This document shows, in pieces, positions 4,286-19,447 of a stretch of DNA of 22,774 nucleotides. A program made the translations under genes and the position numbers. Position 1 is the stretch's first letter. Every line of letters begins with the position of its first letter. The notes beneath the pieces are model-generated. The model was given only the letters and a program-made list of their open reading frames with translations. It did not search any database and had not been told where the DNA came from. Origin of the DNA: a virus. The stretch spans positions 1-22,774 of the IMG/VR virus record IMGVR_UViG_3300006990_000179; one strand, written 5' to 3'.

Positions 4286-4293
4286 GATGTCGT
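4286..4293 (-). promoter_or_regulatory. ACGACATC intergenic element, copy 1
   Basis: The minus strand reads AAAAAACGACATCTAAATAT just downstream of the tube terminator and about 140 nt before the chaperone start. Identical 8-mers sit at 9163-9170, 11523-11530 and 19440-19447, all in the same orientation. Function unknown; promoter part, RNA-processing site or protein-binding site are all possible. Confidence 0.55.
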
Positions 4294-4302
4294 TTTTTAA
4301 AC

Positions 4303-4355
4303 AAAAAAAAATCGTTTCTCTTAAGACACCGAATGATGCACAGTAAAAGAAACGA
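4303..4355 (-). terminator. Rho-independent terminator after tube gene
   Basis: On the minus strand an 11-bp stem, TCGTTTCTTTT (4355-4345) pairing with AAGAGAAACGA (4322-4312, one G-U pair), closes a 22-nt loop and is followed directly by nine T residues. It ends the neck-tail operon after the tube gene. Confidence 0.8.
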
Positions 4356-4423
4356 CTTAATCTATATGTTTATAGGTAATATTGTAAAAGTTTAAACAGA
4401 GATAAACGTGATTACTCCTTTTA

Positions 4424-4945
4424 TTACTCTAAACCATCAGGATGTCTGATAAGATATAGTGCATCAACAGATACCTGCACACCCATTAGACTGCCTCTAT
4501 CAACAACGATGCTTTGTGATGATGGACGACATCCTACAACAGTGTAAATCTTTTTATCTCCATCTTGAAGTTCGCCTTCTGCAGCAGCTTCGGCAGCGCT
4601 GTCATAAAGTTCCAAATCAAATGGACGACTTGTAAGAGCATTGTTTGTACGAGCTTCTGCTGTAGGATTTTCACCATCAGGAGTTTGCTCAGTTGTAATC
4701 ATACTACCTTCATCAGCTTCGTCAGCAGAGAGGCCATTTCTATCATTAGTCTTAAAAATTCTAATAAAGTTGATTGTTGCGGTGACGATACGAGATATTG
4801 GTGTAATCTCACGGCTATCGATAAATCCTAAACTCTCAACACGACCATTAAGTTGACTTTCTTGTATAGATATACCAGTAGCATACCCAGCAACTTTACC
4901 GTCAATTTTAACTATAGCTTTTGCGCCTGTTATTATATTTGCCAT
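4424..4945 (-). CDS. Tail tube protein
   Basis: A 173-aa protein from ATG 4945, with AAAGGAGATAAACA as ribosome site, 12 nt after the sheath stop. It opens with a beta-rich segment (AKAIVKIDGKVAGYATGISI) and ends with VQVSVDALYLIRHPDGLE; both are usual for tube subunits of contractile tails (XkdM/gp19 type), which form the inner hollow cylinder under the sheath. The middle (about residues 70-105) is an acidic, Thr/Asn-rich loop. Sheath followed by tube followed by chaperones and tape measure is the standard contractile-tail order, so the call rests on both length and context. It is the last gene of its operon and is followed by a strong terminator. Confidence 0.85.
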   Translation of the reverse strand: MANIITGAKAIVKIDGKVAGYATGISIQESQLNGRVESLGFIDSREITPISRIVTATINFIRIFKTNDRNGLSADEADEGSMITTEQTPDGENPTAEARTNNALTSRPFDLELYDSAAEAAAEGELQDGDKKIYTVVGCRPSSQSIVVDRGSLMGVQVSVDALYLIRHPDGLE

Positions 4946-4957
4946 TGTTTATCTCCT

Positions 4958-6655
4958 TTATTGTCCAGCTACAATGTTAGCTGTAATGCGAATGAAGTTG
5001 AGTGGCTCAATGAGTGCAACGTCAAAATCTACGAAAACCGTGTCAGCACTTCGTCTAACAGCAATGTTTTTAAAGTCTTGGATAGCACCCAGTTCACGCA
5101 AATCAGATAAACGGCTTTTAGCAAGAGTTTTAACTCTATCAACTGTTGTATTTGTAATACGTGAGCCTAACTCAGAAGTTAAGAATTTACGAAGTTCCTT
5201 AGAACATATGTCAATACTTTCACGGCAAGAAACCTCAGTGTTTACTGATAGGTTATCTTTTCTATATGAAGTCAAAGACCTTACTATTTCTAAATCATTA
5301 CTTGGCCCAAGTTTAACAGCAATAACACTCTTCTGTGCAACACTATTGCTATCACGCTCTCTGCTCCATCCTTGAGTTGTATCAAAGATGCTAAGAGACT
5401 TACGAGTTAAAGGCTCTGCAGGAGGTAAAGCACCTTGAGCACACATTAAGTAATATGCTAAATACTCAGGACCTTCACTTCTTCTTGCACCTTTATGGTC
5501 TGCAAATGTAATACTCTGGCCACAAACTGATAATCTCTCATCATTAAGGGGTAATACGAAGCCTGTATATAGATTAGCAAGTGAAATGCCTGCTGTGCCG
5601 CCTACATATCCATTTCTTTCTCTACCTAAAAGACCTGCTGCTGCAATATGTGATTTAAGAAGAATATGATGGTCTGCATCTTGTGAAAGGATTGTAATGG
5701 TTGATAAATCAGAAGCTTCTACTGCTTCTAATGCAGCAGCATAGTTTATATCTGATGGTGCACCACCGTCGGCGCCTGCAGAAGAAGGAGCAGTTAATGC
5801 AAAGTCATCAAGTATTTCATATCCACCTGCTAAAGTTGCCTCAAAAGGTAAATCAGAGAAAGCTTCAATAGTCTCAATGAGTTTTGCAGTATGTGCGTGC
5901 AATACCTTGTTGATGCTACCACCTGTGCCATTAGTAAAGCTCATAACATCAAGCTTAGCTGGGTCTGAGAATGATAGTGCAAGAGGAGCTAAAGCTGCAG
6001 GTAATACTGCAACTAACTCATCCATACGTGAGTAATCTGATAATGTAAAGTTTTGAGCAGCCTGACCACTCGGTGTATATGTGAAAACGCCTGCCGAAGA
6101 AACTGCAATAGCATCTCCATCAGCAAGTGTAAGCTGTAAGTGATTACTACCGTCGATTAAAAATACTCCATCTTGGTCTTGCCACGGTGCTCTAATCGTT
6201 AGTTTATAATAGTCTGCATTCGCAGCCAACTCAGCAGGTAATGTAGAAGGGTCGTCAAGTTGTAAACGTAAGTTATTACCTTGACCACCGTAATATGTGC
6301 TGCTTAATGTTAATGCAAGTGCTGCTGATGCGTTGTTTAATGCAAAAGATGCTGCAGTGCTTTGGTTTGCACTAACATATGTAATGCTTCGTGCGATACC
6401 GCTTGCGTTTGATAATGAAGACTTATAAATCTTATCGAGTGTTAGAAGCTTTGCATCCATTGGATAAACTTCAGTGAGGTCGAAACCTCCACTACCAAAC
6501 TTATAAGCTGTCTCAGGTTTGAGTATGGGAAAATCTCCCACTACACAAAGGTTTTTCGCGCCAAGTTGTCCTGTTGTATCGAGAGTATTTACAACATCGA
6601 CGACAACACTTGGTTCGAAAAGTCTTGTGCCTCTAAATGTAATTGATGATGGCAT
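4958..6655 (-). CDS. Contractile tail sheath protein
   Basis: A 565-aa protein from ATG 6655 with TTAAGGAGATAAT as ribosome site. The last residues (VFVDFDVALIEPLNFIRITA) match the conserved sheath C-terminal strand pattern of a beta strand, a Pro, then FI and alternating Ile. The helix before it, EVSCRESIDICSKELRKFL and following, is the usual helical segment of the sheath C-terminal domain. Around residues 305-330 the pattern AALEAVEASDLSTITILSQD is the typical alpha/beta core of sheath domain I. Residues about 100-260 look like an inserted beta-rich domain exposed on the tail surface. The sheath surrounds the tube and contracts during DNA delivery. Its presence identifies the phage as having a contractile tail. 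Confidence 0.88.
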   Translation of the reverse strand: MPSSITFRGTRLFEPSVVVDVVNTLDTTGQLGAKNLCVVGDFPILKPETAYKFGSGGFDLTEVYPMDAKLLTLDKIYKSSLSNASGIARSITYVSANQSTAASFALNNASAALALTLSSTYYGGQGNNLRLQLDDPSTLPAELAANADYYKLTIRAPWQDQDGVFLIDGSNHLQLTLADGDAIAVSSAGVFTYTPSGQAAQNFTLSDYSRMDELVAVLPAALAPLALSFSDPAKLDVMSFTNGTGGSINKVLHAHTAKLIETIEAFSDLPFEATLAGGYEILDDFALTAPSSAGADGGAPSDINYAAALEAVEASDLSTITILSQDADHHILLKSHIAAAGLLGRERNGYVGGTAGISLANLYTGFVLPLNDERLSVCGQSITFADHKGARRSEGPEYLAYYLMCAQGALPPAEPLTRKSLSIFDTTQGWSRERDSNSVAQKSVIAVKLGPSNDLEIVRSLTSYRKDNLSVNTEVSCRESIDICSKELRKFLTSELGSRITNTTVDRVKTLAKSRLSDLRELGAIQDFKNIAVRRSADTVFVDFDVALIEPLNFIRITANIVAGQ

Positions 6656-6669
6656 ATTATCTCCTTAAT

Positions 6670-6683
6670 ATATTACGTAATAT
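6670..6683. repeat. 14-nt perfect palindrome before sheath
   Basis: ATATTACGTAATAT lies in the 37-nt gap between the tail completion gene and the sheath gene, just before the sheath ribosome site. It could be a protein-binding site or a weak hairpin affecting sheath expression; it may also be chance in AT-rich DNA. Confidence 0.3.
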
Positions 6684-6692
6684 TTTTTTCAT

Positions 6693-7271
6693 TTAGTTTT
6701 CGACGATGGTGGGGTTTAACTCCCAAGGTAAGTTGAAAGCAACTTCAGGTGGCTTAGCATTTATTTGTCTTTGCGCTCTATACCTTAATGAACGACCATA
6801 TACGTCAACATTACTGGTAATCACATCATCTTCAATGTCAAGGCTTGTGCTACTTACAAACTGTATGTTTAAATATCCCATAGCTAAGAAGTTTTTCTTA
6901 AATATTAGCATTGATGTCTGAATTGTTCTCTGCAGAACCCTCATTGCATCTAAGTCGTCGCAATAAATATTTAAGTCGCAGTCTTGATTTACTAAAAGTG
7001 ATAACTGGCCTTGCATACCTCTATTACCTAAAGGCTGAAATGTGTCTGCGCTTTTTTCATCTATAGAAATAGTTATCAGCGGAAACTTTTCGTGCCTTTT
7101 TCTTAATGCTATATCAAACTTAATGTCTAATGATGCAAGTTTATTGTAATAGTTTTCTCTTAAAGCTGGAGCAACATCAAAAAACAGAGCTTCAAACTCC
7201 ACTTTATTGTCTACATAGTATTTAATACCATTAGCTATTGTATGTGATATGTGTAAATCAGTAACACTCAT
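6693..7271 (-). CDS. Putative tail completion/terminator protein
   Basis: A 192-aa protein from ATG 7271, sharing one base with the stop of the upstream gene (TAATG). GGAG upstream supports the start. It is alpha/beta with a pattern of strands and helices (FPLITISIDE near residue 65; an LLVNQDCDLNIYCDDLDAMR strand-helix; LRYRAQRQI near the end) that suits a tail terminator of the gpU/gp15 class, the ring that ends the tube and joins it to the neck. It lies between neck proteins and the sheath gene, where many contractile phages encode this function. No single diagnostic motif is visible, so the call relies on position, size and secondary-structure pattern. A further neck component is the alternative. 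Confidence 0.55.
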   Translation of the reverse strand: MSVTDLHISHTIANGIKYYVDNKVEFEALFFDVAPALRENYYNKLASLDIKFDIALRKRHEKFPLITISIDEKSADTFQPLGNRGMQGQLSLLVNQDCDLNIYCDDLDAMRVLQRTIQTSMLIFKKNFLAMGYLNIQFVSSTSLDIEDDVITSNVDVYGRSLRYRAQRQINAKPPEVAFNLPWELNPTIVEN

Positions 7272-8059
7272 TAGTCAATCTCCATTATACATTCAACCTG
7301 TATTGGCATTGCAGTAGCTATTTCGATTGTATTCGTCCTAACAAAAGTATCTCTTATTGTATGAGGATGTCCTACAACAGTGAATGTAGGTGAATAATAA
7401 TAACTTACAGCAACTTTAGCACCTACGGGAGGTGTGTTTGCAGGGTTATTAAAAGTTATGACCTTACCGTTTAACGTCGTATCTGATATGGGTATTTCTG
7501 CATTTAACTGTGCTAATCCATTTACATCAGATGGATAGATATATAGTATATTTACTTCAGTTGGACCGGTTGATAGTTGTATAGAGCGTGTTGTGGGTGT
7601 TTCTCTTAAAGAAAGTTGGCCTGCTACTGAGACTTCAATAACTTCACGTTTAACCGTTACGCTATCTAACATTCTAAACCTATCACCATAGCTTGGTAAA
7701 TGCTCAGGTTCTAATGTAATCTTACATCTTTCTTTTCTGTGAAGTCCATATTTTTCTACGGTTTCTTCTCCTGCTGAAGATGTTAGGATAGCTTTTACTT
7801 CTTGTGAAGAGTGTCTAATAAATCCTGCACCTGCACATTTTGGGCAAGCAGAGTTAGGACCTGCTTCATCTGCATCAATATCAACTACATTCATTAAGTT
7901 CATACCAAGAGATGTTGCTGATTTAAGAAAACAAGGGCAACTTATAGTTTGCTCCCATTGAAGTCTTAATCCTTTTTGTTGTATTAGTTTTCTAAACTCG
8001 CCTATTCTAAAATCAGCACGTGTTTTAGTTAGACTTTGCTGAGGTGTAGGCAATAACAT
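7271..8059 (-). CDS. Neck/connector protein with four-cysteine zinc-binding motif
   Basis: A 262-aa protein from ATG 8059, overlapping the upstream adaptor stop by one base (TAATG), so probably translationally coupled. The weak GAGTGG site in front fits that. The N-terminal helix contains many Arg, Gln and Lys residues. CPC at residues 41-43 and CPKCAGAGF at 72-80 supply four cysteines (41, 43, 72, 75) spaced like a structural zinc knuckle. The rest is beta-rich and ends with EIATAMPIQVECIMEID. Its place between the adaptor and the tail completion gene suggests a head completion or neck ring. The zinc site is an inference from spacing; the precise position in the connector is not known. Confidence 0.6.
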   Translation of the reverse strand: MLLPTPQQSLTKTRADFRIGEFRKLIQQKGLRLQWEQTISCPCFLKSATSLGMNLMNVVDIDADEAGPNSACPKCAGAGFIRHSSQEVKAILTSSAGEETVEKYGLHRKERCKITLEPEHLPSYGDRFRMLDSVTVKREVIEVSVAGQLSLRETPTTRSIQLSTGPTEVNILYIYPSDVNGLAQLNAEIPISDTTLNGKVITFNNPANTPPVGAKVAVSYYYSPTFTVVGHPHTIRDTFVRTNTIEIATAMPIQVECIMEID

Positions 8060-9060
8060 TAGAAACCACTCGCAATCTTAGGCATTTTATACCTTTTCTT
8101 AAGAGTTTTCATCGTTGTTTTAAGTTGGTCTTTATATGAGATTATCTTAGCTCCAAAACCTGCGCTTGTTGCAGATGCAGTTGTTGCAATGTTTTGGCTT
8201 AATCCATCTACAGCTAAACTAAACTGTCCAATACCGGCGCCAGCTAATAAATCGCCGGCAGTATCTAAAGGAAGTATTGCTGCAGTGTATAGGATTGCTT
8301 TTATGATAAGGGATGGGACACAATGTAGTTTAAATGATATAACCATATCGCTTACTGCAGGAGTTATATCTGTTTCTACAGAGAATGTTTTATCACCCTT
8401 GTTAAAAACCTTTATTTTTGGGACTTGAGCATTAGCAATATTGCCATTACCATCGTCTGTTATTTCGAATATAAAGTTAGGCCTATCTAATAACTTTTCA
8501 GCAATCGCGATGTCTAAAACTTGCGTTGTGCCCTGAGGTATTGTTATTGTGCCTTCTAATAGATTAAATCCTGATGTATAATCGTATGTAAAGTAAGCAG
8601 GCACACGGCTTGCTGCATTATAGTTTGATATTGGGTCAATGAGAAGAGGTAATACATTACTAAAGTTAAATGTGCCTATGCTTTCTGCTGTAGGAATAAG
8701 TGCAACAGTTGATGTATCAGCTGAAGTTATGTTTAACCATTGCTGTGGGATTTCAACTGGACTATAGTTGCCATAACTAATCTGCAACTTATCAACATTT
8801 TTTAGTGGACGTCTATCTAACTGATTAGAATACCACGCCATTCTTTGGTCATTATATAAATCATATCTTTCGCCTGATACTTTAAAAGGCTCTATGTTTA
8901 TTTCTAACTCTTCTTCGATTAGTGATATTGCTTGGTCAATGCTTTGCTCAAATAACTCATCAGGGAAAGGATTACCCGCATCATCTGTTAAATCTATCCC
9001 AGTTAGCATAGTCTTTTTTAATAAATCAACTGTAATAATGTCGCGTAATACTAAAGTCAT
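8059..9060 (-). CDS. Head-tail adaptor (neck) protein
   Basis: A 333-aa protein from ATG 9060 with AAAAAGGATGTGCA as ribosome site; first gene of the neck-tail operon. Residues about 34-58 (LFEQSIDQAISLIEEELEIN) form the amphipathic helix usual at the start of gp6/gp15-like head-tail adaptors. Near the C-terminus GQFSLAVDGLSQNIATTAS (about 277-295) is a segment I recognise from adaptor proteins of large contractile phages, followed by a basic helix that ends in KKRYKMPKIASGF. The middle carries beta-rich sequence. Adaptors bind under the portal dodecamer and seal the head before the tail docks. Order after the capsid gene supports this. Confidence 0.68.
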   Translation of the reverse strand: MTLVLRDIITVDLLKKTMLTGIDLTDDAGNPFPDELFEQSIDQAISLIEEELEINIEPFKVSGERYDLYNDQRMAWYSNQLDRRPLKNVDKLQISYGNYSPVEIPQQWLNITSADTSTVALIPTAESIGTFNFSNVLPLLIDPISNYNAASRVPAYFTYDYTSGFNLLEGTITIPQGTTQVLDIAIAEKLLDRPNFIFEITDDGNGNIANAQVPKIKVFNKGDKTFSVETDITPAVSDMVISFKLHCVPSLIIKAILYTAAILPLDTAGDLLAGAGIGQFSLAVDGLSQNIATTASATSAGFGAKIISYKDQLKTTMKTLKKRYKMPKIASGF

Positions 9061-9162
9061 TGCACATCCTTTTTAGAGTTATCTGTTTAACGTACGTTTT
9101 ATCTATTTAGACAAGTTGTATGTTTTTATATGTTAAGCATAAAAGCTCAACTGCGTTTATAT
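9061..9162 (-). promoter_or_regulatory. Putative late promoter region before neck operon
   Basis: Downstream of the ACGACATC element the minus strand carries TATGCTTAACATATAAAAAC followed by ATACAAC. The TATAAAAA box (9123-9130) resembles the T4 late promoter TATAAATA (7 of 8) and lies 63 nt before the start codon. The elements ATGCTTAACA (9131-9140) and ATATAAAAACATA (9119-9131) also occur before the chaperone operon, where they are separated by about 26 nt. A 10-nt palindrome AACGTACGTT lies at 9089-9098. No gene is visible. Confidence 0.5.
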
Positions 9163-9170
9163 GATGTCGT
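9163..9170 (-). promoter_or_regulatory. ACGACATC intergenic element, copy 2
   Basis: The minus strand reads TTTTTTTAACGACATCATAT: the element follows the T tract of the capsid terminator with one A between, about 103 nt before the adaptor start codon. Same orientation as the other three copies. Confidence 0.55.
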
Positions 9171-9171
9171 T

Positions 9172-9215
9172 AAAAAAATACCTCCAAGGTGAGGGAGAGC
9201 GAAACACCAAGGAGG
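9172..9215 (-). terminator. Terminator after major capsid gene
   Basis: The minus strand folds CCTCC-TT-GGTG against CACC-TT-GGAGG (a 5-bp and a 4-bp helix around a 2x2 mismatch) with a 13-nt loop, followed by TATTTTTTT. It lies about 75 nt after the capsid stop and separates head from tail transcription. Confidence 0.72.
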
Positions 9216-9288
9216 CTAAAAAACAAATGAATGTTTATTTAATAGATTTTAAAGTTTACCGCTCAAAAACTTTTAGCTAAGAGAAGTA

Positions 9289-10791
9289 TTAACCCTTAAC
9301 GTTGCGAAGTACGAAGTTCTTACGTGGGACCTTAACTGAAGGTGCACCGAAGAGCATAAGAAGGAACTGCTTAGCAGCGCCAACCTCAGCAAGAGGGCGA
9401 CGGATAAAGTCAAGAAGACGTGCAAACTCGATGGTGTTTTGGTCCATCTGAGAAATCAATACGCTATCACAATCTTGTCGCTCAAATCCAGCATCAAACC
9501 AAGGAGTGCCGAGGATTTCATCAGCACGGATTTCACCGATAAGCTCAGCAGCTTTAATAACTTGAGCAGCAGTTGCAGCAGCACCGATTTTTGCACGATA
9601 TACGCGAACGTATTTGCAGTTATTAAGAGCGTTAAGCTGGATTTTAGGAATAGCATCACTGTGGACTGTAAGAGCTGCAGAAACTACAGGAGCTCCATAA
9701 CCCTTCTTGCTTACTGGAACGAAGACATAACGGAAATCACCTTGGTGGTCGCCTACGCCTACTGCTCCCCAACCATTCTCTGTGCCGAAGTTAGCATCAT
9801 CACCGAGGAACTCTGCTTCGGTACGAACAACTGCAGAAGCGATAACAGCCTGTGCCATATCATTACCTGCAGAAGCAACTGCGGGTGGCTTAAGACGACG
9901 GCTGATAAATGGTGCAGCAACAACAGGAACTGGTCCCATTGGGCCCATAATGTGGATACGAGGGCCAGCACCGAGAGTGTGTACGCCTTGGTCTCCCTGA
10001 TTAACGAGAACCATTGAGTCGTGACGACCATTCTGTGCACTATCAGCAATCAACTTGCTATACTGACGTGGAGACATAAAGATTGCGTCTGGAGCGCCGA
10101 AACGAGGAGCGCTATAAAGCTCTCCAAGAACTTCGTGAAGCTTAGAGCCGGTAAGTGCAACACCCTCAAGGTCTTCTTGATTTTGGCTAAATGCTTTACC
10201 GAACTGGTAAGGGTTGCGGTCTGTATCGCCATCACGCTCGATTTGCTTCATAACACCGTCGAATGCGAGGTCGTTTACATCTTCATCACCATAGAAGCAC
10301 TGGACTTCCATCTTACGAAGAAGGCTCATTGTGCCTCTCTCAGTTTCGAGTGCAAGTGCGTCAGCGTTTTGACCAACGATACCTACAAGAGTAGAAACAT
10401 CAGAGATGGCTCGTTTTTCGGCCATATACTTGATTTTAACTGATTTACGGCTATACTGTGAAGTTGAAGAACCGAATGAGCTATCCCCGCCACCTTCTGA
10501 GATGAATGGGTCTAAATCCTCACCGTGGCTATCAATAACAGCATACTCGTGGATGGTGTTAGTAGCTTGGACTTTAGGTAGCATTGGCCATAGAGCCAAA
10601 TCACGCATAGTGTGTGCAGCTGATGCTAAAGTTCCCTCAATGCTCTGAGGCATAATGGGTGAAAGTGGTCCACGAAGGTCGTTTCCGGAGCCGTCGAGAG
10701 CCTGATAACCTACTTGGCTGTTCTTTTGAAGAGCATCATTTAGGCGGGTAAGTTCGTTAATAGTAACGTTTTCATTGATATTTGGCAACAT
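9289..10791 (-). CDS. Major capsid protein (HK97 fold, with FN3-like insertion)
   Basis: A 500-aa protein from ATG 10791 with AAGGAGAAACTAAT as ribosome site, 12 nt after the 175-aa gene. Residues about 115-185 (SVKIKYMAEKRAISDVSTLV, then MEVQCFYGDEDVNDLAFDGV) match the spine helix and GDxxxxxxxFDG pattern of large HK97-fold capsid proteins. GAPDAIFMSPRQYSKLI (232-248) is the usual segment of the A domain. Residues about 351-440 (FRYVFVPVSKKGYGAPVVSA and later KYVRVYRAK) look like an inserted fibronectin III/Ig-like domain, commonly surface exposed. No long N-terminal delta domain is obvious, and a scaffold-like protein is encoded just upstream. The gene looks richer in G and C than its neighbours, fitting codon adaptation of an abundant protein. 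A terminator follows. Confidence 0.88.
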   Translation of the reverse strand: MLPNINENVTINELTRLNDALQKNSQVGYQALDGSGNDLRGPLSPIMPQSIEGTLASAAHTMRDLALWPMLPKVQATNTIHEYAVIDSHGEDLDPFISEGGGDSSFGSSTSQYSRKSVKIKYMAEKRAISDVSTLVGIVGQNADALALETERGTMSLLRKMEVQCFYGDEDVNDLAFDGVMKQIERDGDTDRNPYQFGKAFSQNQEDLEGVALTGSKLHEVLGELYSAPRFGAPDAIFMSPRQYSKLIADSAQNGRHDSMVLVNQGDQGVHTLGAGPRIHIMGPMGPVPVVAAPFISRRLKPPAVASAGNDMAQAVIASAVVRTEAEFLGDDANFGTENGWGAVGVGDHQGDFRYVFVPVSKKGYGAPVVSAALTVHSDAIPKIQLNALNNCKYVRVYRAKIGAAATAAQVIKAAELIGEIRADEILGTPWFDAGFERQDCDSVLISQMDQNTIEFARLLDFIRRPLAEVGAAKQFLLMLFGAPSVKVPRKNFVLRNVKG

Positions 10792-10803
10792 ATTAGTTTC
10801 TCC

Positions 10804-11334: not shown

Positions 11335-11469
11335 TTAACTCCTTATAGTTATTTTTTTATTCGATGACGTAGGTGGAGGTTGTGCATTTGTATCTGAGCT
11401 GAGAACAACGAATACTATACAAACACTCTCTTTACCAGACTGTGCTGCCCTAATAATATTATATATCAC
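11335..11469 (-). CDS. Possible 44-aa ORF in leader of scaffold-capsid operon
   Basis: A GTG-initiated frame of 44 codons plus stop ends inside the ribosome site of the 175-aa gene. It reads with a hydrophobic stretch (VCIVFVVLSS) followed by NAQPPPTSSNKK. Base composition over 11340-11455 is visibly less AT-rich than the rest of the gap, which is what draws attention to it. There is no ribosome site in front of GTG, so it may equally be a 5' untranslated leader. A TATAAATG box (11511-11518) lies 42 nt upstream of the GTG. Confidence 0.22.
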   Translation of the reverse strand: MIYNIIRAAQSGKESVCIVFVVLSSDTNAQPPPTSSNKKITIRS

Positions 11470-11510: not shown

Positions 11511-11530
11511 CATTTATATTTGGATGTCGT
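11511..11530 (-). promoter_or_regulatory. ACGACATC element, copy 3, with TATAAATG box
   Basis: The minus strand reads AACGACATC, then CAAATATAAATGATA. The 8-mer is at 11523-11530 and a TATAAATG box (7 of 8 to the T4 late consensus) at 11511-11518. A sigma-70-like TATAAT follows further downstream in CATATAATCG near 11470-11479. These are promoter candidates for the scaffold-capsid operon, whose first certain start is at 11331. Confidence 0.45.
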
Positions 11531-11531
11531 T

Positions 11532-11645
11532 AAAACTTAAAAAACGTTTTATTTATTTAGTGATTATCATTTTTATCTGTTTTTAAGTTTAAAATATTTT
11601 ATGTATATTTTTACCAATAGACTTAGAAGTTAAAAACAGATAAAA
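11532..11645 (-). repeat. Three inverted-repeat arms, mutually exclusive pairing
   Basis: On the plus strand, arm B (11571-11586, TTTTATCTGTTTTTAA) is the perfect reverse complement of arm C (11630-11645). The overlapping part of B (11579-11590, GTTTTTAAGTTT) is also complementary to arm A (11532-11545, AAAACTTAAAAAAC) with one bulge. B can pair with A or C but not fully with both. Arm C also carries the small CAGAT/ATCTG hairpin and T tract after the protease gene. The geometry resembles an attenuator or antiterminator, but the AT-rich composition makes chance pairing easier. Confidence 0.45.
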
Positions 11646-11653: not shown

Positions 11654-12982
11654 TTAGTATGAATACTTATCGATATATTCTTTGATTACTTTTACATCCA
11701 TTCCAAGTCTCAATAAACCTTCAATGAGTTCTTTAAGCTCATCTGAAGATAACTCATCTTGTGGATGCTCTTTGTCCATATCTTCTTCTTCTTCTGGCAT
11801 ACCAATATTCATATCAGCACTTGCAAGTTCTTTAGGTTCTTCTTCTTCTTTTGCACCTTCTAAACTCTCTTCTTGTAAAGCTGATAAGTCAGACATAGCA
11901 GGCTTCTCTTTCATTAATCCTTCTAAGAAACGAGCGTATTCCATCATTTGCTGACGGTCCATCTTATCCATTTCTTCTTCAGATTTATATTTATAACCTT
12001 TATTCATCTCGAAAGACTGAGGATAATCATTATCTCTATCTAATGAAGGCACTGGAGCAGCTTCTGGAGCTACTACTGCTTCTTCCTCTATGTTATCAAG
12101 GTATTCGGGAGAAACGTCCTTAGACATTAAACGGTGTATTTCTGCCATAAGCTCTGGGTCAAGCAACTCAGGATGAAGTTCTAAGAGTTTTCTTGCTTTG
12201 CTCTCTGAGCTTTCTCCCTCTTCGTATTCTACTTTAGCTTTATCCATTTCTTCTCGCATTTCAACATCCATATAGTGATAAACTGCTTGAATATAGTCTT
12301 GAGCTTTAGTAATCTTGCTTTGGCACCATTCTGGTAAATCTGCATCCATAGGTAATGATTTAAGCAACTGGCATAGCTTTTGAGAATATTCTTCTAATAG
12401 CTTGCTTTGTCGATAAGTCATCGGTAAATCATCATCTTCTGATTTCTTTAGTTCTGGCATATTTTTTTCATCCTCCATATCTGATAAAATGTTTTTGACA
12501 AGTGCGATAGTAGCCTCTGTGTTAGCAGGGTTGTGAGTTAATGATATGTTTAAAACCTTTGCTCTTGTAATGATGTGAGGGTTTTTCTTATCTCTGGATA
12601 AAACTTGTCCTTCAATACTAAACCCTAACTTTCTAACTCCGCCTGCATCTTTCATAACATTAAAATTCTCTACCAAGTCTTTAACGATTTGTTTTTGAGA
12701 ATAAAGAATGCCTTTAACAGCAGTTGCAGGTTTGCCGTTATGGACAATACGGTTTACAGCAGTTGGAGCTCCTAATATATACTTAGGTTCATTTTTATGG
12801 TCGTAGTTTAGGCATCCACTCTTTAAACAGTAACTAAAGTCTAAGCCATCCTGTAAGATTATCTCTCCGTGGCTATCTTCGTGTTCTGTAGTAGCGATAC
12901 CTTCAATTTTATATGTATCATCATCACTTTTGATTAATGTAAGTCCCGGCTGAAACTTACTAAATACGTCTAAGTGGCTCAT
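11654..12982 (-). CDS. Prohead serine protease fused to scaffold-like tail
   Basis: A 442-aa protein. I choose ATG 12982, which overlaps the previous stop as ATGA and has GGAAGGAATACAT in front, over a TTG five codons upstream. Residues 20-160 are an HK97-type (U35) prohead protease: YDHKNEP with His62, KLGFSIEG with Ser122 and the conserved strand ISLTHNPANTEA (146-157). From about residue 170 the protein becomes acidic and helical. It includes DLPEWCQSKITKAQDYIQAV (215-234), a motif I know from phage scaffold-type proteins, then long Glu/Asp/Met-rich coil to the end (KVIKEYIDKYSY). The enzyme matures the prohead by cleaving scaffold; here protease and an internal scaffold appear to be one polypeptide, like other phage protease-scaffold fusions. 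His and Ser assignments are by motif only. Confidence 0.82.
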   Translation of the reverse strand: MSHLDVFSKFQPGLTLIKSDDDTYKIEGIATTEHEDSHGEIILQDGLDFSYCLKSGCLNYDHKNEPKYILGAPTAVNRIVHNGKPATAVKGILYSQKQIVKDLVENFNVMKDAGGVRKLGFSIEGQVLSRDKKNPHIITRAKVLNISLTHNPANTEATIALVKNILSDMEDEKNMPELKKSEDDDLPMTYRQSKLLEEYSQKLCQLLKSLPMDADLPEWCQSKITKAQDYIQAVYHYMDVEMREEMDKAKVEYEEGESSESKARKLLELHPELLDPELMAEIHRLMSKDVSPEYLDNIEEEAVVAPEAAPVPSLDRDNDYPQSFEMNKGYKYKSEEEMDKMDRQQMMEYARFLEGLMKEKPAMSDLSALQEESLEGAKEEEEPKELASADMNIGMPEEEEDMDKEHPQDELSSDELKELIEGLLRLGMDVKVIKEYIDKYSY

Positions 12983-13422: not shown

Positions 13423-13439
13423 AGTTTTTTCGCTCTCCT

Positions 13440-13458
13440 TAACGTATAACCATTGTTG
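13440..13458 (-). repeat. 19-nt direct repeat, copy downstream of 53-aa gene
   Basis: CAACAATGGTTATACGTTA on the minus strand, identical to 13557-13575 and exactly 117 nt (39 codons) away. Flanking similarity (TCTATAAACAACAAC versus TCTCTAAACAACAAC) extends the duplication to roughly 45-50 nt. This copy sits between the 53-aa stop and the ribosome site of the 147-aa gene. Confidence 0.8.
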
Positions 13459-13472
13459 ATATGTGTTGTTGT

Positions 13473-13634
13473 TTATAGATAATATGTAGAGGTGGGTTGT
13501 TTGTCTTGTATTTTACCCTCTTTATCTAATGCTTTCCACTCTTCTATAGCTTCTGCTAACGTATAACCATTGTTGGGTGTGTTGGTTGGTTGTTGTTTAG
13601 AGACTATATTGTATTTGCGAGGTAAATAACTCAT
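13473..13634 (-). CDS. Small protein, 53 aa, unknown
   Basis: ATG 13634 with AAAGGA five bases before it; an alternative ATG four bases upstream (13638) gives only a 13-codon frame and is unlikely. The peptide begins MSYLPRKYNIVSKQQP, has a Pro/Asn-rich linker and a helix GYTLAEAIEEWKALDKEGK (about residues 23-41), then a Thr/Tyr tail. Good ribosome site, coding-like composition and location in the head operon support it. I do not recognise the family. The AEAIEEWKALDKEG helix resembles a short protein-interaction helix; function unknown. Confidence 0.6.
   Translation of the reverse strand: MSYLPRKYNIVSKQQPTNTPNNGYTLAEAIEEWKALDKEGKIQDKQPTSTYYL
13557..13575 (-). repeat. 19-nt direct repeat, copy inside 53-aa gene
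   Basis: Second copy of CAACAATGGTTATACGTTA, encoding NNGYTL within the small gene. The copy downstream is in the same frame, after the stop. Confidence 0.8.
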
Positions 13635-13650
13635 TCATATCCTTTGTTTT

Positions 13651-13658
13651 TATTTATA
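13651..13658 (-). promoter_or_regulatory. TATAAATA late-promoter-like box
   Basis: A perfect match to the T4 late promoter octamer, overlapping the stop codon of the 30-aa ORF and only about 17 nt before the 53-aa start. The leader would be about 10 nt, so it may be chance or serve a very short leader transcript. Confidence 0.25.
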
Positions 13659-13746
13659 AGTATTGAAATATACCAGGGATTGTAAATGTAATAAAATACA
13701 CAACTGATACATAGTAATGTGCATTAGACTTCTTGTCGTTTTTCAT
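13654..13746 (-). CDS. Possible 30-aa single-membrane-span peptide
   Basis: ATG 13746 lies 2 nt after the portal stop (TAATAATG), suggesting translational coupling; AAGGA is within the end of the portal gene, about 12 nt before. The peptide starts MKNDKKSNAHYY and continues with a hydrophobic stretch VSVVYFITFTIPGIF (residues 13-27), that is, a basic N-terminus followed by one membrane span. Such mini-proteins are often lysis or membrane-accessory peptides, but nothing specific can be concluded. Its small size makes chance possible. Confidence 0.42.
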   Translation of the reverse strand: MKNDKKSNAHYYVSVVYFITFTIPGIFQYL

Positions 13747-13748
13747 TA

Positions 13749-16175
13749 TTACTTATCTTCCTTTTCTTCACGTTCTATTATCATTTCTGCCCATTTACGA
13801 CCGCTATCTCCACCCCAGAGCAACCAACTCACAAACCCGTTGTCCTCATACCATTCCTTATTATCAGCAACTTCTTTGTTCTTTTCGTGTCTATCAAAGA
13901 ATGCCTTCATACGTTTAACTGTATCATATGAGATGTTATCTCTATTAGCTAACTGTCTTGCTCTAACTCTACCTACTTGAGTTCCTGCATCACTTCCGTG
14001 TTCTTCTATTGCTTTAATACCTCTTAAGGCTTCATCTGCAATAGCTTGTGTAGGTTTATATGTATCAGACTTAGCTAATCCTTCAACAAAAACTTCTTTG
14101 GTTTCTGAAGGTGATAAAGCTTTTTTACTCTCTAAATGTTCTTCCCATAACTCTTTATCAGCACTTCTTGCACCACTTTTACTGTCAAATAAGAATGCGT
14201 AAACTCTTGCACGAGCCCAAGACTGAGGTGTTTGGCCTGGACGATGTCCTGATGTAGCATATGCTGCTAAGCCTTTATCATAGACTTCTTCAATAATGCT
14301 TCTTTTAACTCCACTTACTTTAGCGCAAGCACGTAAAAACTCATCTTTCCCAGGCTTCTTTATCTCTTCTCTTACTTCATCAGCTTTCTTAGACTTCGTT
14401 CCTTTATTTTGTTTCTGTTTTTTTTTATCCATCTCATCACCGGGTAATGGAGAATAGTCTACCTCACCAGTTTCTTTTTGGCGTTTCTTACGTCTTTCCA
14501 TTTCTGCTTCACGCTTACGTTTAGTTTCTTCATCTAAACCTTCGAAGTATTGAGCAGGATGTTCTTGTCCATCTCCATCTATATCTACTTTAGCTTTATC
14601 AATAGAAGTATCAGCACGATTAACGTCTTCACCATCTAACTCTAACTCTTTATCGTGCTCTTCTTCTACAGCTTCTTCGAGACTTATTTCATCATCCTTA
14701 CCAACCTCTTCAGCAACAAGGATACCGTGCTCCTTGATAGTAGCTATCTTGATACCTGTGTAAGCTGCTGCGAGTATATCACCATCATCAAGTTCAGGCA
14801 AATCGTGCACAGTTCTAATCTCATTTAAAGTCATATACTTCATTTTGTGCTCTTCTAACTTCATTTTATCCATTAGAGAAACACTGTCTAATCCTGTAAA
14901 TACTAATTTGTATCTATCGTCAACTTGGTCGATAATATATCTGTTTATCCACGACTGTAATGACCTAACTAAAGGACGTAAACCTTTTTCTTTACCCATT
15001 AAAACACGCGCAGATGGGTCTGTTCCAAATAAAGATGAGCTTTGGGTTTCACTACCAAAAACAAATCCGATTTCTGCTGGGTCAATCTGGTAAACACCAC
15101 AAGCTACTTTTATTAAGTAGTTTATCCAGTTATTATATTCCATCTCACGATTAGACGGCTGAAGGTTTATTGATGAAATATCTTCTTTCTCATCTGGGTC
15201 TAACTGTATGAGTGGAGTTCTTTTAGCATTACCAACACCATTAAGCATTTGATAAAACTCACGCCTAAAACTTCTAAATAGCTGTGGAGCCATTTTAGAC
15301 TTAACTGCGATAATGCCATTAGCATTTATACCGTTTGTAAAGTTTGCAGAGTTATATGTTTCTGCATTGAAAAGGTTATTTAAAATCCCGTATAACTCTT
15401 CTAACTCACTATGTCCTAAACCTTTACGTCTGATATCAGTACGAGGACGTCTAATACCAAAGCAGAGTTCATCCTGTTTATACTCAGCAACAACTTTATT
15501 GTTTATTACCTGTATATACCTAATACCAGCAGGGTCTTTGCGTCCGCTTTCTATTTCATCTTCTGTTAGAGGAGCTTTTTTAATAGTTGTAGCATCAACC
15601 GGCATAAATCCAGTGATTTGACCTTTTCTATTTTTTATTATTTCAAAACAAGCTTTATCGAATACTAAACTATCTCTAATGATTTGTCTAATAAAACTTT
15701 CGAAAGTAAGCTCATAATCAATAACTGATGAACCACAGTTTTGTAGAAACTGATTAATAGCAACGATATTTTTCTTATCGTCATCAGTCATTTCTGCGTG
15801 CTCATCTTTTAAAACTATTTTATATCCTAAATCTTCATCAGGAGAATATTGTCCAAACTCTGCACACTGATTTATTCTACTTCCTATGATAGAAGAGATT
15901 AAATGGTGTTTAGACATATTAATAAGAGCACCTTGATTTAAGTTATCAGTTTGTTGCTCTTCAAAGTAATATTTCTTACCACTTCCGCTATAACTACTCA
16001 TCATACGTGAGTTTGCGTGGTCGTATGGGTCTATATCTTTATATTTAGCTTCTTTTGCTATTGCGTCAATAATATGCTCGTCAGGAGTATCATCCCCAAG
16101 ATTTAAAGGCTCAACACTTTTAGCTAAAGTGCTGTCCCCACTCTTATTTGGCAAAAATCTATCATACCAAGGCAT
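13749..16175 (-). CDS. Portal protein with fused C-terminal domains
   Basis: An 808-aa protein from ATG 16175, which shares one base with the preceding small gene (TAATG); AGGAGT inside that gene is the ribosome site. Residues about 55-470 are a portal core: FESFIRQIIRDSLVFDKACF (158-177), the GHSELEELYGILNNLF helix (254-269), NGIIAVKSKMAPQLFRSFRR (286-305) and the tunnel-region KVACGVYQIDPAEIGF (356-371). Portals form the dodecameric DNA gate of the head. A charged Glu/Lys linker (490-605) leads to two extra domains: GHRPGQTPQSWARARVYAFL (643-662, DUF5824-like by memory) and a domain from PTQAIADEALRGI (708) to WLLWGGDSGRKWAEMI (784-799). The latter recurs in phage head proteins, often at the end of proteases or scaffolds. 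Typical portals are 400-550 aa, so the C-terminal 300 residues are an extension. Confidence 0.85.
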   Translation of the reverse strand: MPWYDRFLPNKSGDSTLAKSVEPLNLGDDTPDEHIIDAIAKEAKYKDIDPYDHANSRMMSSYSGSGKKYYFEEQQTDNLNQGALINMSKHHLISSIIGSRINQCAEFGQYSPDEDLGYKIVLKDEHAEMTDDDKKNIVAINQFLQNCGSSVIDYELTFESFIRQIIRDSLVFDKACFEIIKNRKGQITGFMPVDATTIKKAPLTEDEIESGRKDPAGIRYIQVINNKVVAEYKQDELCFGIRRPRTDIRRKGLGHSELEELYGILNNLFNAETYNSANFTNGINANGIIAVKSKMAPQLFRSFRREFYQMLNGVGNAKRTPLIQLDPDEKEDISSINLQPSNREMEYNNWINYLIKVACGVYQIDPAEIGFVFGSETQSSSLFGTDPSARVLMGKEKGLRPLVRSLQSWINRYIIDQVDDRYKLVFTGLDSVSLMDKMKLEEHKMKYMTLNEIRTVHDLPELDDGDILAAAYTGIKIATIKEHGILVAEEVGKDDEISLEEAVEEEHDKELELDGEDVNRADTSIDKAKVDIDGDGQEHPAQYFEGLDEETKRKREAEMERRKKRQKETGEVDYSPLPGDEMDKKKQKQNKGTKSKKADEVREEIKKPGKDEFLRACAKVSGVKRSIIEEVYDKGLAAYATSGHRPGQTPQSWARARVYAFLFDSKSGARSADKELWEEHLESKKALSPSETKEVFVEGLAKSDTYKPTQAIADEALRGIKAIEEHGSDAGTQVGRVRARQLANRDNISYDTVKRMKAFFDRHEKNKEVADNKEWYEDNGFVSWLLWGGDSGRKWAEMIIEREEKEDK

Positions 16176-16321
16176 TATTTACTCCTGTTTTTTTTATTTT
16201 GATAAGACTTCTCTACTAATCTATCAACTTTTTCTTCAATACTGTTTGTAAGCTTCTTGATGTCGTCAAGCGTCTCAAATAACTTCTTATAAACTGATTG
16301 CATATCCGGATTGTCTTTCAT
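16175..16321 (-). CDS. Small coiled-coil peptide, 48 aa
   Basis: ATG 16321 with GTGAGGATAGA in front; stop shares one base with the portal start (TAATG), and the portal ribosome site AGGAGT lies inside its last codons. The peptide is a charged amphipathic helix (YKKLFETLDDIKKLTNSIEE, about residues 11-30) with a basic, Asn-rich tail. It is probably translationally coupled to the portal. No family recognised; it may be a portal cofactor or simply a leader cistron. Confidence 0.65.
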   Translation of the reverse strand: MKDNPDMQSVYKKLFETLDDIKKLTNSIEEKVDRLVEKSYQNKKNRSK

Positions 16322-16354
16322 TCTATCCTCACTTTAGGTATATAGTATTAAGTA

Positions 16355-16368
16355 TCACATAAATGTGA
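16355..16368. repeat. 14-nt inverted repeat TCACAT-AA-ATGTGA
   Basis: A perfect short inverted repeat in the 73-nt gap between the 86-aa and 48-aa genes. The shape is that of a dimer operator (reminiscent of TGTGA-type sites). No promoter box is clear beside it. Confidence 0.3.
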
Positions 16369-16394
16369 AAATATTATGAAAGATTTAAAGATTT

Positions 16395-16655
16395 TTAAGC
16401 TTTATCGTCCATAAGGTTTGAAACGTTTGTGTCTATTCTGATAAGTGTATTACTTATTTCGTTCATATCTGATTTCATCGCGCTGATTTCTCGACCTAAG
16501 TCTCGAATATCACGTTTATGTTCTTTTAACTGCTCAATCTCAGTCTCCATCTTTTGGAGTTTCTGCGCTGTTATTTTACTATCTTTATGAAAAGTATAAA
16601 ACAAGCCTAATATTCCAATGATTGAGCCCAAAGACAACATTAAGTTATTCTCCAT
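16395..16655 (-). CDS. Membrane-anchored coiled-coil protein, 86 aa
   Basis: ATG 16655 with TTTAGGAGCAAGCAAAT as ribosome site. Residues 4-22 (NLMLSLGSIIGILGLFYTF) are one membrane span near the N-terminus; the rest (about 25-86) is a continuous charged coiled coil with regular Leu/Ile/Met spacing (KLQKMETEIEQLKEHKRDIR, later MNEISNTLIRIDTNV). This is the architecture of small phage lysis or membrane proteins (holin- or spanin-like), but the coil lacks a lipobox and I recognise no family. It begins the head operon. The product could also be a membrane tether used in assembly. Confidence 0.65.
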   Translation of the reverse strand: MENNLMLSLGSIIGILGLFYTFHKDSKITAQKLQKMETEIEQLKEHKRDIRDLGREISAMKSDMNEISNTLIRIDTNVSNLMDDKA

Positions 16656-16679
16656 ATTTGCTTGCTCCTAAATAATATA

Positions 16680-16745
16680 TATTAAAGGGCCCCCACCTGA
16701 CCTATTATGCCCGGAGGGCTCCTCCTATATTAAATAGGGTTATCC
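16680..16745 (-). ncRNA. GC-rich multi-hairpin leader (possible structured RNA)
   Basis: In a 177-nt gap the interval 16687-16725 has 27 G/C of 39 bases, far above its AT-rich surroundings. In transcription order, CCTAT-TTAAT-ATAGG forms a hairpin, then GGAGG-AGC-CCTCC or, as an alternative, GCCC-TCC-GGGC, and GGGC further pairs with GCCC near the end, followed by TTTAATATATATT. An AGGAGG is hidden in the second helix. It sits about 40-90 nt upstream of the 86-aa start. It could be a leader that controls the head operon; no known riboswitch is recognised. Confidence 0.4.
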
Positions 16746-16759
16746 ATTTTACTTCTGTT

Positions 16760-16775
16760 TAACTTAAATAAGTTA
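16760..16775. repeat. 16-nt perfect palindrome TAACTTA-AA-TAAGTTA
   Basis: Seven-base arms with a two-base centre, between the fibre terminator and the GC-rich leader. It lies where the promoter of the head operon would be expected, so an operator is possible. The ACGACATC element is absent from this gap. Confidence 0.4.
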
Positions 16776-16793
16776 TCCGATAAAACATAGGAC

Positions 16794-16826
16794 AAAGAAA
16801 AAGAGATTAAGCCAAAGCCTAACCTC
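16794..16826 (-). terminator. Terminator after 824-aa fibre gene
   Basis: Seven bases after the fibre stop the minus strand has GAGGTTAGGC-TTTG-GCTTAATCTC (10 bp with two G-U pairs and a four-base loop) followed by TTTTTCTTTG. A clear intrinsic terminator. Confidence 0.85.
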
Positions 16827-16832
16827 CTAATC

Positions 16833-19307
16833 TTATACTCCAGTTAGTCCTACAGATTTCCAAGTGTTTGTAGCAACGCAAACGTAAAGGTTAGCACTGT
16901 CAAATCTCAAATCGCCAGCTGTTCCTGTAGCTGAGCCAGAAGCTGGAGCACTACCTTCCATACGAAGTAGACCAACAACATTACCTTCACAATCGATAGA
17001 AGCTGCTTCAAGAGCACCAATGTCCATATTACCCTTAGTATAGTTTCCACTTACAGCAACAACGTCTGAAGATGGCTCTGTATCGTGGGTAAAGGGCTTG
17101 AATTTATCATCAGTCTCATCGAAGAAGAAACCACAGAAGCTGCTTGAAGAACGCTGTGAATAGAAACCGTGGTCAACTGCTGAAGTATTATTTACGCCAA
17201 GCTCGAGGAGTGTATCACCGAGTGTGACTGTCGCAGCAGCAGCAGTTAGATTACCACCAACAACTACATTACCAGTTGAAGTAATATTACCACCGACTGC
17301 CAAGTCGTCTGCGATGGTGACGTCAGAAGGTAAACCGATTGTAATAGTATCGTCAGAGATAGAAGTCTCAATCTCATCATTTGTTCCGCTAATAGTAAGC
17401 GTTCCACCAAGGTCAATATCGTTAGAAGTTCCACTATCAGCTGCAAGTGTAAGATGGTCATTAGCAATCATTGCGTTAGAAATCGCATCGTTAGCAATAG
17501 CTGAAGTTAGAGCAACGTTGCCAGAGCCATCAAAAGCAATATTAGCAGCGGTCACTGGACCTGAGGTAATACCGATGTTCTTAGTTGCAGCAAACTTAGT
17601 AGCTGTTGCAGCATTACCAGAAGTTGCAGCGTTAATGGTTGATGGGAGACTGAAGGTAAACTTGTTATCTCCAGCTGCATAAGCAACGTCAACCTCATTT
17701 GAAGTTCCTGCAATATCGATAAAGCTACCTAAAGCAATAGTTTCTTGTGAAGACCCAGCAAGTTTAAGCTCGATACCACTATTTTGGAGTTTAGCATTAG
17801 CGATTGAGCCAGCAAGCATTGCATTGGTAATACCAGTGCCTTTAACCTGTAGATTACCAGAGCCATTAACTTCGATTGAGCTGTCATCAACCTCAGAAAC
17901 CTTAAGATAATCCTCAGCAAGTTGTGAGTCAGCAACATCACCATCGAGTGCAGAAGTTCTATAAGCAGTTGCGTCAGAAAGGTCAAATGCTGGATTAGCA
18001 TCAGATTGACCTAAGTTAAGAGAAACGCCACCGAATGAAACTGAGCTGTTTGCAAGGTTTCCGTTAGAGATAGACCCTGCAAGCATAGCATCAGTAATAG
18101 TATCATTAGCAATAGATGATGTAAGAGCAACTGCTCCAGAACCATCAAAACTTACATTAGCTGCACGAACTGGTCCAGCAGTAATACCAACATTAACTGC
18201 GGCGTTAAGAGCAGAAGCTGTAGAAGCGTTTCCACTTAATGCTGCTGAAATTGTAGAAGGTAGACCAATGGTAAAGTCGTTAGTAGATGTGCTATAAACA
18301 ACATCAACTTCATTAGTTGTTCCCTTGATTTCAAACTCACCACCGAGTGCTAAAGTCTCAGAGTTTGAGCCATCACCGATAGTAACGCCTGGGTTAGCAA
18401 GCATATCGTTAGTGATTTGGTCATCAGCAATGCTTGATGTAAGAGAAAGATTACCTGTTCCATCAAATGAAACTGCAGCAGCGCGGATTGGACCAGCGCC
18501 GATTGCGAAAGTTCTTGCAGATGCCAAAGCAGTTGCAGTTGAAGCATTACCAGTAAGCTCACCAGCAAGTGCAGTAGCGCTAACAGAAGAAAGTCCACTT
18601 ACTGATGAAGGTAGACCGAATGTGTATGTGCCATTTGAGCGAGATACCTCAAGCTCATTAGAAGTTCCTTGAAATACGAGTGCTCCACCAAGCTCAATAG
18701 TAGCTGGAGTAGTTCCATCACCGAAAGAGTATCCTGGGTTAACGAGCATATCATTTGTGATTTGGTCATCAGCGATAGTAGAAGTTAAACTAACTCCACC
18801 ACTACCGTCGAATGATACGTTAGCAGCTCTAACTGGTCCAGAGCCGATAGCAAAGTTTTGTGCTGATGCTAAGGTTGTTGCAGTAGTAGCGTTTCCACTA
18901 AGAGCACCTTCGAATGTCCCAGCAACGAGAGTAGCGCTTGAGCCACCAGTAAATGTGGTTGAAGGCTCAGAAGTCATTTCGTGAATGAGTTTAAACTTAC
19001 TATCAGATGCATCACGCATTAGACCAGCAAACTTATCTGCTCCGTCGTTATATAATCCGTAAAAACCAATGTCGATTGCATCGCTACTATTTCCGCGAGC
19101 AAGTTTGATTAGTGGGTCTTCAACATCCAAGTTAGATACTTGAAGTGAAGTAGAAGTGCCGGTTACAGTAAGATTACCCTGGACTTCAACGTCTCCAGAG
19201 GTCGTCATTGTTTCGGCTTGAATATCACCTACGTGTGCTGTGCCCCATTTTACTGAGGTTGTGCCTAAATCGTGGGCTTTATTACTATCTGGGCGTAAAC
19301 TTGACAT
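16833..19307 (-). CDS. Repeat-containing tail fibre / structural protein, 824 aa
   Basis: ATG 19307 with GAAAGGACATAATA as ribosome site. It opens with SLRPDSNKAHDLGTTSVKWG, a common fibre N-terminal attachment-like segment. Residues about 40-110 are a beta module (GDVEVQGNLTVTGTSTSLQV ... IDIGFYG). Four repeats of about 105-205 residues start at 138, 253, 359 and 564, each with GNA(S/T)TA, then (A/G)GPxxAAxxxFDG and a final strand GLPS or SLPS; the third carries an extra 100-residue insert. A second copy of the opening module is at about 680-741. The C-terminal tip (GTAGDLRFDSANLYVCVATN, residues 796-815) is a pattern I know from marine phage fibres. Repeats of this kind form long beta-rich trimers. 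Receptor unknown. Confidence 0.8.
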   Translation of the reverse strand: MSSLRPDSNKAHDLGTTSVKWGTAHVGDIQAETMTTSGDVEVQGNLTVTGTSTSLQVSNLDVEDPLIKLARGNSSDAIDIGFYGLYNDGADKFAGLMRDASDSKFKLIHEMTSEPSTTFTGGSSATLVAGTFEGALSGNATTATTLASAQNFAIGSGPVRAANVSFDGSGGVSLTSTIADDQITNDMLVNPGYSFGDGTTPATIELGGALVFQGTSNELEVSRSNGTYTFGLPSSVSGLSSVSATALAGELTGNASTATALASARTFAIGAGPIRAAAVSFDGTGNLSLTSSIADDQITNDMLANPGVTIGDGSNSETLALGGEFEIKGTTNEVDVVYSTSTNDFTIGLPSTISAALSGNASTASALNAAVNVGITAGPVRAANVSFDGSGAVALTSSIANDTITDAMLAGSISNGNLANSSVSFGGVSLNLGQSDANPAFDLSDATAYRTSALDGDVADSQLAEDYLKVSEVDDSSIEVNGSGNLQVKGTGITNAMLAGSIANAKLQNSGIELKLAGSSQETIALGSFIDIAGTSNEVDVAYAAGDNKFTFSLPSTINAATSGNAATATKFAATKNIGITSGPVTAANIAFDGSGNVALTSAIANDAISNAMIANDHLTLAADSGTSNDIDLGGTLTISGTNDEIETSISDDTITIGLPSDVTIADDLAVGGNITSTGNVVVGGNLTAAAATVTLGDTLLELGVNNTSAVDHGFYSQRSSSSFCGFFFDETDDKFKPFTHDTEPSSDVVAVSGNYTKGNMDIGALEAASIDCEGNVVGLLRMEGSAPASGSATGTAGDLRFDSANLYVCVATNTWKSVGLTGV

Positions 19308-19446
19308 TATTATGTCCTTTCATATGTGCATTCTAAATGCGTATTTATATTGTTTTAGATAGAAACTCTTTAGATGCGTATCGTTATTAGTATATATCCA
19401 TTACTATAGTTATTTATACAAAAATATAAAATTTTTATTGATGTCG
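19308..19446 (-). promoter_or_regulatory. Promoter region of 824-aa fibre with two TATAAATA boxes
   Basis: Between the 1031-aa and 824-aa fibre genes the minus strand carries two perfect T4-late-type TATAAATA octamers, at 19411-19418 (in TTGTATAAATAACTATAG) and at 19342-19349 (in AATATAAATACGC). They lie about 104 and 35 nt before the start codon. No gene is visible in this stretch, which is very AT-rich. Confidence 0.55.
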
Positions 19447-19447
19447 T
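19440..19447 (-). promoter_or_regulatory. ACGACATC intergenic element, copy 4
   Basis: The minus strand reads GCTTTTACACGACATCAATA: the element comes directly after the terminator hairpin of the 1031-aa fibre and 133 nt before the next start. Same orientation as the other copies. Confidence 0.55.

Follow-up and report, generated by a model that had tools for sequence, protein, structure and literature searches.

We asked what signal is carried by an 8-mer, ACGACATC, that recurs at the operon joints of a viral DNA, IMG/VR record IMGVR_UViG_3300006990_000179 (22,774 nt; its whole length is called the window here, and G000 among the sequences compared). The window is a linear IMG/VR fragment in which the open reading frames (ORFs) of the structural module all lie on the minus strand. 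A first reading of this DNA, made from its letters without database searches (the sequence-only reading), had noted the 8-mer at four operon boundaries and had offered a promoter part, an RNA-processing site or a factor-binding site as its role. We find that it belongs to a strand-specific, hairpin-linked motif that recurs at the same joints in related viruses and is spelled in concert within each genome. We favour, at a probability of about 0.45, the reading that the element is the sequence-specific half of a transcript-boundary signal acting on RNA, by hairpin-anchored cleavage or 3'-end formation, and not a promoter.

The idea that the 8-mer exceeds what base composition would yield held, with six copies of ACGACATC in the window against 0.25 expected by shuffling (0 of 100 shuffles reached six). 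Four of the six are intergenic and in coding orientation, exactly where they had been described, and both of the further copies mentioned by the sequence-only reading were found as well. We letter the joints A (from the tube gene to the 163-aa gene), B (after the terminator that follows the gene for the major capsid protein, MCP), C (before the 175-aa/MCP operon), D (before the 824-aa gene) and E (before the 637-aa gene of G003, outside the window). At the four joints of the window the next start codon lies about 103-192 nt from the element, in agreement with the earlier estimate of ~103-190 nt. The copies are:

19440..19447, minus strand: boundary element ACGACATC at joint D, before the 824-aa operon; a homologous site with its own hairpin is present in G003, G013 and G018
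11523..11530, minus strand: boundary element ACGACATC at joint C, before the 175-aa/MCP operon; kept in G021, G003, G013, L011, L018, L007 and others
9163..9170, minus strand: boundary element ACGACATC at joint B, after the MCP terminator (motif match)
4286..4293, minus strand: boundary element ACGACATC at joint A, between the 173-aa (tube position) and 163-aa genes (motif match)
16259-16266, minus strand: copy of ACGACATC inside the 48-aa ORF at 16175-16321, in the same orientation
4526-4533, plus strand: copy of ACGACATC, antisense inside the 173-aa ORF at 4424-4945 just after the sheath gene (motif match)

The antisense copy at 4526-4533 is kept in several relatives (L009, L011, L019, L027 and L030), which probably reflects coding constraint in the 173-aa gene. 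The TTTTA said to precede the element is exact at two of the four joints and inexact at the other two.

PHROG matches in the window comprise sheath, major head protein, head maturation protease and portal. The portal and a 333-aa protein match SPO1-like Herelleviridae at low identity (mostly 27-37%; top matches include vB_EalM-132 and SPO1-type phages), and the order portal, protease, MCP, sheath, tube and following small genes is that of vB_EalM-132 and SPO1-type phages. Relatives were collected by an MCP search, which gave 27 contigs, and by the MCP alignment, which extended the list to 59 MCP-bearing IMG/VR contigs; the longer ones were read entirely. Terminase and right-arm protein searches aimed at extending the contigs gained none longer, and a host search in genome contigs returned no match. 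The contigs of the relatives are partial, and all evidence presented here is sequence-based.

Across the relatives, the 8-mer proved to mark a real signal and to be too narrow as a unit: its first two bases vary, the conserved core is GRCHTC, and the full unit reads stem-loop, 0-9 nt, nnG(A/G)C(A/C/T)TC and an A-rich tract, with 70% A in the first six bases 3' of the core. In a motif-naive scan of GC-containing 7-mers from intergenic DNA of the near clade, CGACATC (21:0) and AAGGAGA tied for the strongest strand bias, and the other 7-mers at the top of this ranking beside CGACATC were Shine-Dalgarno (SD) variants. The pattern nnG(A/G)C(A/C/T)TC(A/T)A gave 43 intergenic matches on the coding strand and 0 on the opposite strand in 21 contigs, a count that takes in near-identical contigs and a few copies in short ORFs (ORFs <240 nt were unmasked) and does not represent 43 independent events; four scrambled or reversed control patterns, counted in the same way, gave 8/8, 8/7, 3/9 and 1/4. 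The same-strand intergenic enrichment in relatives that the sequence-only reading had proposed as a check is strong. Sites recur at the same five joints (A-E) among relatives with an MCP down to about 48% identity, and the earlier view that the element marks certain operons and leaves others unmarked is supported.

Over 23 non-redundant sites, the information lies in the core columns alone (about 7 bp) and the flanks have no consensus; core invariance is built into this alignment by the search pattern. No second box at a fixed spacing was found in the same alignment from -40 to +59, a result that the pattern does not build in. Within genomes, the cores agree: CGACATC occurs four times in the window, CGACTTC three times in L011, GACCTC three times in G018 and GGCATC twice in G027. 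On a hand-curated list of 36 sites, 32 of 36 within-genome core pairs were identical, compared with 17.5 after shuffling (p<1e-4), which suggests one recognising factor per genome.

In the cultured relatives vB_EalM-132, SPO1L3 and LysYB2 (27-41 kb portal-centred stretches), no hairpin-linked element was found at the matching structural-module joints. LysYB2 has five coding-strand intergenic GRCHTC-like matches, none of which is at a structural joint or has a stem that exceeds the cut of 14.4. A search of other viruses, which used exact flank patterns only, gave 16 matches, none with family homologues and with the copies lying within ORFs, and these were rejected.

The hairpin that the sequence-only reading had placed upstream of the element is both right and general. 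In the window, the relevant structures are:

19448..19484, minus strand: 15-bp stem-loop with four G-U pairs, ending on the base before the joint D element (stem search)
11531..11551, minus strand: weak 6-bp inverted repeat TAAAAC...GTTTTA abutting the joint C element (read directly; score 13 at distance 0)
9171..9179, minus strand: ATTTTTTTA tract (9 nt) between the joint B terminator hairpin and the element (sequence and stem search)
9180..9216, minus strand: terminator hairpin after the MCP gene, its loop carrying the conserved CTCTCCC (stem search and alignment)
4313..4354, minus strand: terminator-like hairpin CGTTTCTT...AAGAGAAACG, then a T-run ending ~9 nt before the joint A element (read directly)

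By a simple stem score applied to AT-rich DNA, 39% of the 36 sites have a stem ending 0-9 nt upstream with a score of at least 18, compared with 7% of other positions in the same gaps. A strong hairpin is 3-6 times commoner just upstream of the element than elsewhere in those gaps, and the signal drops toward background beyond about 10 nt. Hairpin-element distances fall into two classes, 0-1 nt and 6-9 nt. The abutting class (joint D of the window, G003, G013 and G018; joint E of G013 and G027; joint C of L018 and G008) mostly lacks a T-run, and the other hairpins are terminators with a T-run (joint B). The combination of GC-rich stem and unpaired T-run that makes an intrinsic terminator is present at joint B and absent at several abutting sites, such as joints D and E of G013. 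Stem sequences at one joint differ between species. The ratio of G-U pairs to A-C mismatches was 46:18 in element stems and 394:359 in control stems (p=0.003), and this excess points to RNA of the coding strand.

Two further structures were observed near these hairpins. CTCTC(CC) is present in the post-MCP terminator of 13 of 13 aligned sequences (window 9060-9289, minus strand, and homologous gaps in L009-L073), and several carry a complementary stretch after the MCP stop codon (GAGCGG in the window, GGGGAGCAAC in L011, CGGGAGAG in L010); from this complementarity, a covarying long-range or pseudoknot pairing is probable. The distant pair G028 and G029 has CGACCTC at joint C (oriented contigs, G028:17693 and G029:24352), and after it a short GGCT...AGCC hairpin and a conserved CCAACAACCACATTGCA, which may form a structured leader RNA of the MCP operon. 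Of this pair, G028 also has a joint A copy that may be due to chance, as its sister G029 is without it. An Rfam search returned no family match, its sole hit lying far below the gathering score at 12013-12080.

A separate motif, ATATATAATA, is likely the late promoter of these viruses and, as judged by sequence, would be a better promoter candidate than the ACGACATC element. Its intergenic matches number 32 forward and two reverse. In the Herelleviridae phage CKA15 (Listeria), late promoters have an extended -10 of the form TGYTATAWTA (PMC12282133), and the late promoters of phage K are -10-only, without a -35 (PMC9241854). The corresponding boxes in the window are:

11457..11466, minus strand: ATATATAATA, about 64 nt 3' of the joint C element and likely the -10 of the late promoter that serves the MCP operon (motif; comparable to TGYTATAWTA of CKA15, PMC12282133)
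4181..4188, minus strand: CATATAAT, likely -10 of the 163-aa operon promoter (sequence comparison)

In the window, G003, G017, L007, L011 and L018, the joint C element is followed 55-67 nt later by ATATATAATA, whereas at joint D of G003, G013 and G018 ATATATAATA comes before the element. Because order and distance vary, we take the element not to be a box of that promoter. Moreover, L010 and L068 retain a ATATATAATA-like motif at joints that have no element, which indicates that the promoter does not need it; G013 and G027 showed no ATATATAATA-like motif near joint E. The element was rejected as the late promoter core, for which ATATATAATA is the better fit. It was also rejected as a sigma70 -35 (TTGACATC at G017 and TTGACCTC at G018 joint C), since its first two bases are unconstrained and a -10 at a fixed spacing downstream is missing. 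The two hexamers 16-18 bp apart that define a sigma70-type promoter are absent, and joint B of G028 and G018 leaves no room for them. For lack of a fixed-spacing partner box, of promoter room in certain relatives and with ATATATAATA the likelier late promoter, the promoter part proposed by the sequence-only reading gives way to its second option, an RNA-processing site, which fits best among those it offered, as a candidate and not as a proven site.

The placement of the element bears on this directly. At joint B of G018, G028 and G029, the element is hemmed in by the terminator T-run on one side and the SD site on the other. The unit at joint E (G003, G013, G017 and G027) lies 30-44 nt upstream of the start codon. 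L010 and L064, which have no element at joint B, carry a tRNA-Thr(TGT) directly after the post-MCP terminator (L010:9183-9254, L064:4397-4469), at the position that GRCHTC occupies in other species. Since almost no promoter room is left between terminator and tRNA, RNA probably reads through there. Taken together, the element squeezed against the SD site, joint E of G013 and G027 with no promoter-like motif nearby and the probable tRNA read-through fit an RNA boundary signal better than a sigma-type promoter.

In such a signal, a late mRNA running beyond the end of one structural operon would fold the stem-loop, directly 3' of which single-stranded nnGRCHUC and then the A-rich tract would follow. 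A factor that the viruses of this family specify or recruit would read GRCHUC beside the stem and cut the RNA there, as we favour, or provoke its release. The upstream mRNA would gain a hairpin-capped 3' end and the 5' end of the downstream operon would be insulated or freed, with the late promoters (ATATATAATA, -10-like) separate from the boundary element. We infer the action on RNA, the cleavage and the recognising factor from the patterns described above.

Several observations weigh against this reading. The likely promoter of the next operon stands downstream of the element at joints A and C, so that there the element could act on read-through RNA only. The G-U excess weakens when terminator sites are left out; joint B terminators contribute a good part of the G-U pairs counted, and ordinary terminators account for part of the hairpin signal. 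Stems form easily in AT-rich DNA, and hairpins are weak or absent at L016, at joint C of L011 and at joint A of G028. Finally, the ORFs scanned from partial contigs yielded no candidate nuclease, RegB-like or other.

If the RNA-level reading holds, the hairpin-anchored GRCHUC with its A-tract is, tentatively, a possible new class of phage mRNA punctuation, read by a family-specific endoribonuclease or termination factor that would set late-unit boundaries and co-evolve with its sites. An uncultured SPO1-related virus family is thereby given a defined, testable boundary signal, distinct from its late promoter, and the genome-specific spelling implies a dedicated recognising factor. If the element is a processing site, it would belong to a system, of a rare kind, for sequence-specific cutting of mRNA in phage late genes, from which an enzyme that cuts RNA at defined sites might be obtained.

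The main rival, which we consider rather unlikely, is a compact DNA promoter core in which a T-rich stretch, CGACATC and an A-rich melting region would direct a phage-specified polymerase or sigma-like factor to start just after it, the hairpins being terminators of the preceding operons. Short strand- and joint-specific motifs that vary in concert per genome are typical of phage promoters, the core and flanks look T7-type by eye (CGAC, then AT-rich), and the element immediately precedes SD sites in G028, G018 and L030, as would suit transcription beginning directly 3' of the core. Against such a promoter, only ~7 bp are conserved, with flanks free of consensus, and it leaves the abutting hairpins without a T-run (G013, G018, G008 and G027) unexplained; ATATATAATA already provides a Herelleviridae-like late promoter, even at joints without the element. 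No RNA polymerase or sigma gene was found in the partial genomes, in contigs up to 62 kb, including Pfam scans of ORFs from four contigs. The PF00940 search for a single-subunit RNA polymerase gave no match in 13 partial contigs; as it also failed to match any of its control genomes, this negative does not establish absence. A compact promoter for a phage polymerase keeps its share of probability because the contigs are partial.

A sequence-specific accessory to termination, in which hairpin and GRCHTC make the 3' end by release instead of cleavage, would agree with the terminator-type hairpins that the element follows, and with joint B, where its distance to the upstream stop is steadier than that to the next start. 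In CKA15, 13 of 66 mapped termination sites were predicted to be intrinsic (PMC12282133), which we also count in its favour. We consider it improbable, as the two hairpin-distance classes do not match a single termination register and the next gene at joint E of G013 and G027 would be left without an evident promoter.

More doubtful still is the idea that the element binds an activator, or a processive antitermination factor that loads close to where each late operon begins. The position of the joint C element upstream of ATATATAATA in several species, and of the joint D element downstream of it in G003, G013 and G018, would suit this idea; the variation in order and distance between joints speaks against it, as does joint E of G013 and G027 with no such motif nearby. 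Chance or inherited sequence without function, to which the small window count and the two coding copies of six might be put down, is strongly disfavoured by the 43:0 strand bias, the conserved core amid diverged flanks and the concerted spelling.

Two observations concern other genes. At the position of the SPO1-type tail assembly chaperone pair (window 3335-4145), two ORFs, of 163 and 121 aa, share 47 nt, and the overlap suggests a possible programmed frameshift. A 336-aa right-arm protein (L034:4269-5279, minus strand; L108:10001-11011) carries the motifs DLKSA, KxxxFG and HDG, by eye reminiscent of A-family polymerases. PHROG gave no match, Pfam none above cut-off and AlphaFold2 a poor model (pLDDT 44), and its assignment as a polymerase was dropped.

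Among known systems, the RNase III processing hairpins of T7 are intergenic and cut polycistronic phage mRNA. The hairpins described here likewise stand between genes, and differ in the conserved heptamer next to the stem; we know of no RNase III sites with a conserved single-stranded heptamer in that position. The PeSL cassettes of T4-type phages, reportedly described by Arbiol in 2010, are said to join a stem-loop to an early promoter and to be mobile between sites. They share with our unit a stem-loop and a regulatory signal at gene joints, whereas the stems here are unrelated in sequence. The Arbiol study is cited in PMC4177764. Promoters of the N4 virion RNA polymerase contain a small hairpin with a 3-base loop and serve early genes (PMC4496689); a variable-base stem with a few fixed bases is common to both, but the loops here are varied and mostly longer, and the genes are late. 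T7 promoters span -17 to +6 (PMC4496689), and T7-type promoters resemble the element in their short asymmetric core, AT-rich flank and concerted variation per genome, but extend over about 20 bp compared with 7 informative columns here. The strand-specific, AT-rich -10 that precedes Herelleviridae late genes without a -35 is matched here by ATATATAATA, whereas the GRCHTC element is another motif at a variable distance from that -10. The closest analogy for how the element may work, though not for membership, is the T4 RegB site, GG*AGRAYARAA, a short core with an A-rich 3' tract (PMC3014915). An intergenic core followed by such a tract is found in both; the core is GGAG in one and GRCHTC in the other, and the targets of RegB are early mRNAs, chiefly their translation initiation regions, with secondary structure giving protection, whereas the element described here stands beside an upstream hairpin at the joints of late structural operons.

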